From Plumapathes pennacea (taxonomy: Eukaryota > Cnidaria > Anthozoa > Antipatharia > Myriopathidae): a stretch of DNA of 64,000 nucleotides. The stretch lies in assembly GCA_964036295.1 (NCBI GenBank), contig OZ038462.1:21204363-21268362 (forward strand), in the 5' to 3' direction. The notes under the pieces are model-generated. The model had not been told where the DNA came from. It ran no database searches and saw nothing but the letters and a program-made list of their open reading frames with translations. Shown here piece by piece: positions 25,291 through 27,421 of this stretch. The translations under genes were made by a program, and so were the position numbers. How positions within the stretch are numbered: the stretch's first letter is position 1; each line of letters opens with the position of its first letter.

Positions 25291-25356
25291 CCTTTAAGCC
25301 CTGTCAAACAGTCACAACATTTGTCTCAACATTCTCTCAACATTGTTAAGAGCCGG

Positions 25357-26892
25357 TGTACCAGTAAATGTGTTCCCCCCTAAAAGTGTTCTCCCCGGAA
25401 CACATTTCCTAGTAAATATGTTCCCCCCGGGGAACACTTTTCCTGGGATATGTGTTCCCCCCATCGGAAATATGTTCCCCCCAAGTTAACATTAACTGTA
25501 TACGATAACAACTGTCTGAGCAACTGCAACAGGGATTCTGGCACAGTCAAGCTTATTGCGTTTTGCGTTTTCAACTCTGGTCTACACAAAAACGAAAGAA
25601 TTCGGTGATAAAAATGCATCGATTCGAAAACACAGCCAAAAGTGGATCGTTTTCAAAACGGCCCGGTTTCTCTTTCCGTGTAAACGCATCCGTGTAAACC
25701 GCGCCTCAAACAAAGAACGATAACAGATGAAAACATTAAGCAAAGCAAGACTTCAACATCTGAAGCATGCAAATTAACAATGTGGACTAATTGCCCGCTG
25801 AAAAAACCCGCCGCGTGTCGTGAATAAAATCGTTTCTTTTGTGTTGTGAGGTAATGACGCGAATGATTGACACATTGTTATTATGTTTACTCCACCGTAA
25901 AGTGACAAAATGCGTTGACCAATATTGTAAGACTGGAATAAAAAAACCTCCCAGGGTTTCTGTGGAGTGAAGAGGAGTAAACTGCAAGGAGAAGCAAAGA
26001 TGGATTCAAAGGAGTATAGTGTTATCTATAATTATGTTGCAAGAGGAGAGTATCCAGATAGGTTCTCTAAAGAAGAAAAGAGATCTCTGAGAGTGAAGGT
26101 CGACGCTAGAGGAACGCGGAAACGGACTATTGAAAGATATAAACTTTGATCAAGTGAAGATGAGGGTGCACCTACTTGAGTGCCTAGAGAACGAAGCAAT
26201 CACGGCCTTTCCCCGTTCACGTAAAGCACCGAAACCGCGACAAAGAAGTCACAAACTGCAGGTGATTCAAACCTTTTGTACCTGCCATCTACCCGAGGCG
26301 TATGATGACATGATCAGATGTGATTTGTGCGACAAGTGGTATCACGTTAAATGCGTGAAATTATCTTCAACTCCCGCCGATGACGAAGAATGGCTCTGCC
26401 GATCATGCCTGCCGCCCAAGAAAGTCAGCCGGAGATAAACAGTTGATAACCCGTAGACTGTATATAAACATTTGTTTCAAGCCTGGGAGCTTTTAGCCCC
26501 GAGTACATGCGCCGACGCCGAGACTCGTGCAACACAACTGACTGAACATCATGTTACAGTTTAATGGAATACTAGACTTCCAATTGCAGTTATAAATAAA
26601 ACTAGTGTGCGTAAATCGGTGGAGCAATTTATTTGGTATCTACACAAACAGGCATCTTGAGCAGATAAGCCCACAATACAAAAGAAGCAGTGCCACAATT
26701 GATCGAGAGTTGTCGTAATTTTGGACGTCAGAATACCTGACAAGGTCAGGGCACAATTATGCCTTCGGCATGGTCAACGTTTACTGGGGGGAACACATTT
26801 CCGGATGGGGGAACACATATCCTAGGAAATGTGTTCCGGGGGAACACATTTACTGGAAAATGTGTTCCGGGGGGAACACATTTCCTGTCACA
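25357..26892 (+). mobile_element. Ginger-like DNA transposon, internally deleted, carrying a PHD finger
   Basis: Inverted termini TGTACCAGTAAATGTGTTCC and, on the other end, TGTGACAGGAAATGTGTTCC, flanked by an exact 4-bp duplication CCGG (25353-25356 and 26893-26896). Subterminal AATATGTTCCCCCC motifs repeat about five times on the left and four on the right. A TGT start, a 4-bp duplication and a KRBA2/GIN-like N-terminus plus PHD are features I associate with Ginger1 transposons (integrase-type DDE elements). The integrase core is missing at this locus, so it is a non-autonomous deletion derivative. Confidence 0.65.
26000..26438 (+). pseudogene. Transposon-encoded N-terminus and PHD finger, frame-broken
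   Basis: From ATG 26000 the frame reads MDSKEYSVIYNYVARGEYPD then FSKEEKRSLRVKV, resembling the N-terminus of KRBA2/GIN-type integrase proteins, and stops at 26149. An overlapping frame (about 26108-26438, TAA) encodes a complete PHD finger with C-x-C, CDLC, H-x2-C and CRSC ligands and the conserved W before the last pair (EEWLCRSC). A basic tail PKKVSRR ends it. PHD fingers read histone H3 tails. The frame break and missing integrase core suggest a deletion with a frameshift; a small spliced gene cannot be excluded. Confidence 0.5.
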
Positions 26893-27187
26893 CCGGTGTT
26901 GAGGCCGTTTCACACCCCCTCTCAACATTGTTGAGACATGTAAGAAGAGTTTGGGTTTTGTTTAAGCTTTGCCTCAACATCGTCTCAACATTTCTTTTGT
27001 TCTAGAAATTTTGAGGCCGTTTGACACGGCACGTTCTCAACATGTCTCAACAATGTTGAGAGAACGTTGAAACAACTGTTGTGACCGTTTGACAAGGGCC
27101 TAAAGGAAACAGACAAACAGTTTCCTAGTGCATCAACGTAATAGTCATTAAGTCAGTATAATATGTTGCCTCTGATTGAACCAAGTA

Positions 27188-27421
27188 AAGCTGGTGTTAC
27201 ACTGGTCGATTCGCAACGACGATTTGCAACGCCGATTTGCTCCAAATCCCCGCAACGGCGTTGCAAGTTTTTGAATCGCTTTCAAAAACTTGCAACGCGT
27301 TGCAGCACTGCAAACATAGCGAAAAATCGTTCGCAATGGGGTGTTACACCTCAACGATTTTTAGCGCAACATCGCATCGTTGCAAATCGTCGTTGCAAAT
27401 CGACCAGTGTAACACCACCTT
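27188..27421. mobile_element. Palindromic MITE, GGTGTTACACTGGTCGAT ends
   Basis: AAGCTGGTGTTACACTGGTC at the left, its complement (one mismatch) at the right, and internal GCAACG/CGTTGC palindromes make it a near-complete foldback. Confidence 0.8.

Follow-up and report, generated by a model that had tools for sequence, protein, structure and literature searches.

Introduction

According to the accessible part of Bao et al. 2010 (PMC2836005), Ginger1 elements have 4-bp targets (CCGG or CCGT/ACGG), terminal inverted repeats (TIRs) of 40-270 bp and TGTNR ends, and their transposase carries YPYY, H2C2, DDE and GPY/F parts together with a C-terminal OTU or Ulp1 domain. Ginger1-9_HM of Hydra (Table 1 of that paper) has both Ulp1 and PHD at the transposase C-terminus and provides a published precedent for this combination. 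Among the matches listed in literature searches, nothing beyond PMC2836005 was found on PHD-bearing Ginger1 elements or their deletion derivatives, or on transposase PHD fingers used in target choice; a term search of the accessible text of PMC12863088 gave no match.

Here we analyse an element lying in a 64,000-nucleotide stretch of DNA (the window, C1:21204363-21268362), using searches of a genome of 290 Mb in 24 contigs. Judged from its sequence and that of its relatives, the element is very probably a non-autonomous, internally deleted Ginger1 cut-and-paste transposon.

Results

Structure of the element and of its target

Window positions 25353-26896 hold a 1,536-bp insertion with TGT...ACA ends (TGT at 25357, ACA at 26890-26892), inverted repeats of about 120-140 bp and an exact CCGG duplication. 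The features of the locus are as follows.

25299..25352, plus strand: left part of the target element, a 259-bp inverted-repeat element (joined-flank match)
25353..25356, no strand: left copy of the CCGG target-site duplication (flanks joined at one CCGG fit paralogous repeats)
25357..25496, plus strand: left TIR with TGT start and TGTTCCCC modules (inner limit approximate)
26000..26149, plus strand: putative N-terminal transposase ORF remnant (ATG 26000, stop 26147-26149)
26097..26438, plus strand: PHD-containing ORF, 113 aa (first in-frame ATG 26160)
26116..26117, plus strand: predicted internal-deletion junction with 2-nt GC microhomology (relatives on each side; 19 places)
26116..26276, plus strand: putative last part of the Ulp1-like region, with linker (relatives run upstream into a DCG motif)
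26277..26408, plus strand: C4HC3 PHD finger (Pfam PHD)
26773..26892, minus strand: right TIR, ending in ACA (inner limit approximate)
26893..26896, no strand: right copy of the CCGG target-site duplication (sequence, copies elsewhere)
26897..27097, plus strand: right part of the same 259-bp inverted-repeat target element (joined-flank match)

Alignment of both 140-bp ends scored 128, whereas 200 mononucleotide shuffles reached no more than 10. The module TGTTCCCC occurs in forward orientation at 25371, 25419, 25453 and 25473, and as its reverse complement at 25429, 26788, 26808, 26839 and 26871. The ORF at 26097-26438, which overlaps the N-terminal ORF in another frame, matched Pfam PHD with an E value of 5.5e-10 (39.6 bits, cut-off 24). 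A sequence-only reading of the locus had reported inverted TGT ends with repeated modules, an exact CCGG on both sides and an intact C4HC3 PHD finger in an overlapping frame; all three were borne out by these results.

When the flanks of the element are joined at one CCGG, they form a 259-base dispersed repeat with 53-bp inverted ends. Among the best 40 of 104 candidates in the joined-flank search, 39 of the 40 scored places cross the junction when alignment spans are compared, the remaining one being the right side in the window itself. The three best of these 40 matched 259 bases for 259 at 97-98%, with length unchanged; many of the others are about 10 bases longer, so indels must lie somewhere within the target repeat. 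Since the joined flanks correspond to a dispersed repeat that is uninterrupted elsewhere, the Ginger1-type element most likely landed inside such a 259-bp repeat, duplicating 4 bp. The inverted ends of this target repeat (window 25299-27097) carry CTCAACATTGTTGAGA motifs, and a separate 234-bp inverted-repeat element (window 27188-27421; arms of 44 bp, 95% complementary) lies close to it.

Copies of the family share ends, CCGG targets and a deletion junction

The left 138 bp of the element gave at least 46 matches in the genome, right ends included and several per element, a lower bound from the best 40 of 61 candidates scored. Loci with sequence of the family merge to at least 37 places, to which C7:14983950 is additional. 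Both ends were present on one strand in 16 places, two of which were dropped as segmental duplicates with identical flanks. CCGG/CCGG was found in 13 of the 14 independent two-ended insertions and CCGA/CCGG in the other. CCGG also adjoins the end in 15 of 19 one-ended places, the four others showing CAGG, CCTT, CCAG, and CCGG with an additional T after it. Two pairs of copies with the same flanks, C7:193236/C7:205165 (about 12 kb apart) and C7:18092884/C7:18109317 (about 16 kb apart), appear to be local segmental duplications carrying the element.

End-to-end spans of the copies range from 296 to 2,879 bp, with inserted sequence present in the longest. Various internal deletions were found, joining for example 148 to 1358, 263 to 1108, 533 to 909 and 207 to 829 in element coordinates; multiple different internal deletions are usual for cut-and-paste elements. 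The junction at 26116-26117 of the window is common to 19 places, or to 18 independent copies once C7:205165 is removed as a segmental duplicate of C7:193236, and the junction-bearing copies diverge by 1.2-3.4% from the majority sequence. Since the same junction occurs in 19 places, the deleted form has probably spread in trans.

The two ORFs correspond to opposite ends of one gene

The N-terminal ORF is transposase-derived to about position 26117, after which an out-of-frame tail of about 10 aa leads to the stop. Its 72-aa frame gave a single unrelated, below-cut-off match in Pfam and nothing else. The sequence-only reading had called this piece KRBA2/GIN-like; a search on KRBA2 yielded nothing useful. 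By eye it contains GEYPDRF, which was compared with the published YPYY motif by description only. Left of the junction, relatives at C6:17.52 Mb and C6:17.86 Mb run on into Integrase_H2C2 (Pfam E 1.2e-19); they are 97% alike in this region and perhaps reflect a single duplicated event. The H2C2 zinc finger is thus absent from the window copy and present in the same-family places C6:17522887 and C6:17863505. At 87% identity or above, the H2C2 region was found in three places only among the best 150 of 300 candidates (C6 twice and C7:14983950), and all three are deleted elements too.

Right of the junction, the upstream continuation of relatives at C1:18.39, C7:4.70, C2:6.34 and C7:18.09 Mb is a Ulp1-like piece, whose motif reads VDFG in C7:18.09 and VDCG in the other three. 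All four lead into the same PHD; only C7:4.70 Mb has it both complete and open. The Ulp1-like piece has a DCG motif and matched Peptidase_C48 with an E value of 0.011, below the Pfam cut-off; Peptidase_C48 was not listed for a shorter Ulp1-like query. The copy at C8:13.01 Mb, in which the regions left and right of the junction meet at different points, is an independent deletion. On the evidence of these relatives, a single predicted transposase gene of Ginger1 type supplied both parts, the N-terminal piece from one end and the PHD finger from the other, and an internal deletion brought them together.

A decayed sister element retains the integrase core

A sister element at C7:5797.2-5801.6 kb has the same domain order and 42% identity over the PHD ORF; it differs from the window copy in retaining the integrase core, which is deleted in the latter. 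Although decayed, it contains the whole domain order. In Pfam, H2C2 (E 3.1e-6) and PHD (E 4.4e-8) were recognised, together with rve_3 below cut-off (E 0.0014); of the seven pieces compared, three were matchless and a fourth had only an unrelated weak match. Against solved structures, the integrase core matched Ty3 (E 2.9e-9) and foamy-virus integrase (E 1.6e-7). The first core piece matched no solved structure and was picked up by a related integrase-core query (E 1.5e-20). A YP-containing N-terminus, a GPY stretch and a DCG-containing protease piece were recognised by eye, and the Ulp1-like and PHD pieces come after the integrase. The frames are interrupted, by stops and decay or by introns, and no inverted ends were seen in 7.8 kb around the element. 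At C7:9554-9558 kb, core and PHD matches are spaced as in the sister element, as far as match positions alone indicate.

Among the best-scoring candidates in the genome, no autonomous copy of the element's own family was found via the PHD ORF, the N-terminus, the H2C2 region or a related integrase core, no copy of the family had an integrase core, and no enzyme source for movement in trans was identified. No integrase was seen by eye in the translations of three places where the left end alone aligned (L003, L008, L018), and no integrase motif upstream of the Ulp1 piece in L043. The order proposed for the parent rests in part on the broken sister family because no integrase-core copy of the element's own family was found.

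The sequence-only reading had described an element of Ginger1 type, deleted internally, that retained its PHD finger, and this is supported by the relatives on each side of the junction, the CCGG duplications, the joined-flank match and the sister element. It had named a lack of other copies sharing the termini as an argument against itself; many such copies are present, with at least 46 left-end matches. It had also suggested a search for full-length copies with integrase sharing these termini; end-sharing copies are numerous, and none of those found has an integrase core. As for relatives with a different transposase class, also named as telling against it, the sister element has an integrase, and within the family itself no full-length relative was found.

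Other families with related modules

Four places similar to L087 2796-3870 (C12, C2 and C1 twice) form with it a second family of Ginger1-like integrases, which has H2C2 and a partial core that an intron apparently splits; the core was also matched in three of the four other places. L087 itself (C11:5297 kb) matched H2C2 (E 1.5e-13) and, below cut-off, rve (E 0.012). It was rejected as a parent of the window element: no TGT ends with CCGG-type duplications were found in 9.7 kb. At L070 (C1:16116.6-16117.6 kb), only about 0.9 kb spans both a YP-type N-terminus and a decayed Ulp1-PHD, so that a similar internal deletion may have occurred in a second family.

Six further loci (L079-L084, on C3, C2, C11, C6, C10 and C5) contain ORFs, 305 to 675 aa long, that end in Ulp1-like and PHD or PHD-like parts. 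In four of the six (L079, L080, L082, L084), a clear SWIM-like C-x-C...C-x-H was seen by eye in the same or an upstream ORF. They share with the window family a Ulp1-like part followed by a PHD, and differ in the N-terminal half and in having only 27-34% identity to the window PHD ORF. These long ORFs were considered as parents and rejected; they apparently belong to a different class of transposase that shares this C-terminal module. In keeping with such ORFs, a figure legend in the accessible part of PMC2836005 aligns Ulp1 and PHD domains of Mutator transposases too.

The PHD frame shows no detectable constraint

The PHD ORF is uninterrupted in 9 of the 18 independent junction copies, a count that the sequence-only reading had suggested making. 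Such persistence would suit a useful, selected protein, whether the short PHD ORF or the N-terminal peptide, acting for example as a repressor of the parent element or as a host chromatin reader. We regard this as very unlikely. According to our reading of the alignment, a zinc ligand is no longer present in two of the nine open copies (C5:17178907, C11:3127902), nor the ATG in one (C3:12884250), and the deletion would have shifted the PHD out of the frame of the original start. Across the 18 copies, with each changed site counted once, the PHD frame shows 60 nonsynonymous changes, 24 synonymous changes and 5 stops, where the noncoding spectrum of the element itself predicts 55.2, 23.1 and 4.9 (omega about 1.05). 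The other two frames of the region gave omega values of 0.79 and 1.09, and the true frame therefore does not stand out; the N-terminal frame gave 1.09 (22 changes). The PHD region is no less variable than the noncoding part (322 vs 239 changes per kb). Changes common to at least two copies comprise 10 nonsynonymous and 1 synonymous; though small in number, they run counter to what purifying selection would leave. With this many amino-acid changes, an omega of 0.5 was rejected (P 0.001) and one of 0.7 weakly disfavoured (P 0.057), in a test that pools the 18 copies and that one selected copy among neutral ones would escape. The PHD of the deleted form looks like a passenger under no detectable selection, decaying neutrally. 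The sequence-only reading had left the choice between chance and usefulness; chance is favoured because the PHD frame shows no purifying selection, and a useful protein found no support.

The class of the element was weighed in the same way. A Mutator-like class that also carries Ulp1-PHD is less probable still: the Ulp1-PHD ORFs of the genome, several with an upstream C-x-C...C-x-H read as SWIM by eye, speak for it, but the 4-bp CCGG duplications, the TGT ends and the left-hand relatives entering Integrase_H2C2 point to Ginger1. Duplications made by Mutator-like elements are longer, about 8-11 bp. LTR retrotransposons, too, have TGT...ACA ends and can make a 4-bp duplication, and a Gypsy-type remnant would be compatible with both. 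It is the least probable of these alternatives, as the ends are inverted repeats of more than 100 bp, the targets are CCGG, and the Ulp1-like and PHD pieces lie downstream of the integrase in the sister element. The likeness of Ginger1 termini to those of LTR retrotransposons is stated in the accessible part of PMC2836005.

Discussion

The deleted Ginger1 interpretation implies the following history. The parent would have encoded one transposase with, in order, a YPYY motif, an H2C2 zinc finger, an integrase (DDE) core, a Ulp1-like protease and a PHD finger, the full order being taken from the sister family. A single deletion with 2-nt microhomology would have taken out the whole stretch separating the N-terminal motif from the end of the Ulp1 part, so that the PHD no longer shared the frame of the original start. 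Both ends would have been kept, so that integrase supplied in trans could mobilise the deleted copy to other CCGG sites, until it reached at least 18 independent places with the PHD carried as a passenger between the ends. The element that supplied the enzyme is likewise a presumed part of this explanation.

It is doubtful that the PHD of the parent transposase bound H3K4me3 and tethered the integrase to CCGG sites in active chromatin. Compared with solved structures, the window PHD matched MTF2 best (two PHD fingers summed) and TAF3 next, with PHF23, PHF2, PHF8, ING4/5 and BPTF among further matches, and several in this group are H3K4me3 readers. In a crude test, 45 insertion flanks of 500 bp did not differ from the window in G+C (P 0.28) or CpG (P 0.26), so the targeting idea gains no support from base composition.

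Collectively, an odd gene-like island can be explained as transposon debris that holds a clue to the build of its parent element, and a domain inside a repeat can look intact without being under selection. The sister element backs an integrase-Ulp1-PHD protein beyond Ginger1-9_HM, the single PHD family published in the accessible part of PMC2836005, and histone-mark reading at integration thereby becomes testable.

Set beside the Ginger1 description in the accessible part of PMC2836005, the family has CCGG/CCGG at 13 of 14 two-ended insertions, TIRs of roughly 120-140 bp within the 40-270 bp range, and an H2C2 zinc finger in the same-family C6 places; the integrase core is found in the sister element, with GPY there by eye. 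The right end, TGTGA, fits TGTNR, and the left end, which would be the 5' side, reads TGTAC, its fifth base being no purine. The AT-rich RTATAY target preference of Ginger2/Tdd is not matched, the targets being CCGG. On this comparison, the window copy is best filed as a putative non-autonomous member of an already known kind, Ginger1. Compared by description only, it resembles Ginger1-9_HM in its C-terminal Ulp1-like and PHD parts, in TIR length (120 bp in Ginger1-9_HM) and in belonging to a group with 4-bp CCGG targets, and differs in that Ginger1-9_HM is 3,758 bp long with an annotated transposase, whereas the core of the window element is deleted. Non-autonomous Ginger1 copies of Branchiostoma likewise share the ends of an autonomous element; PHD retention, which distinguishes the window copy, is not described for them in the accessible part of that paper.
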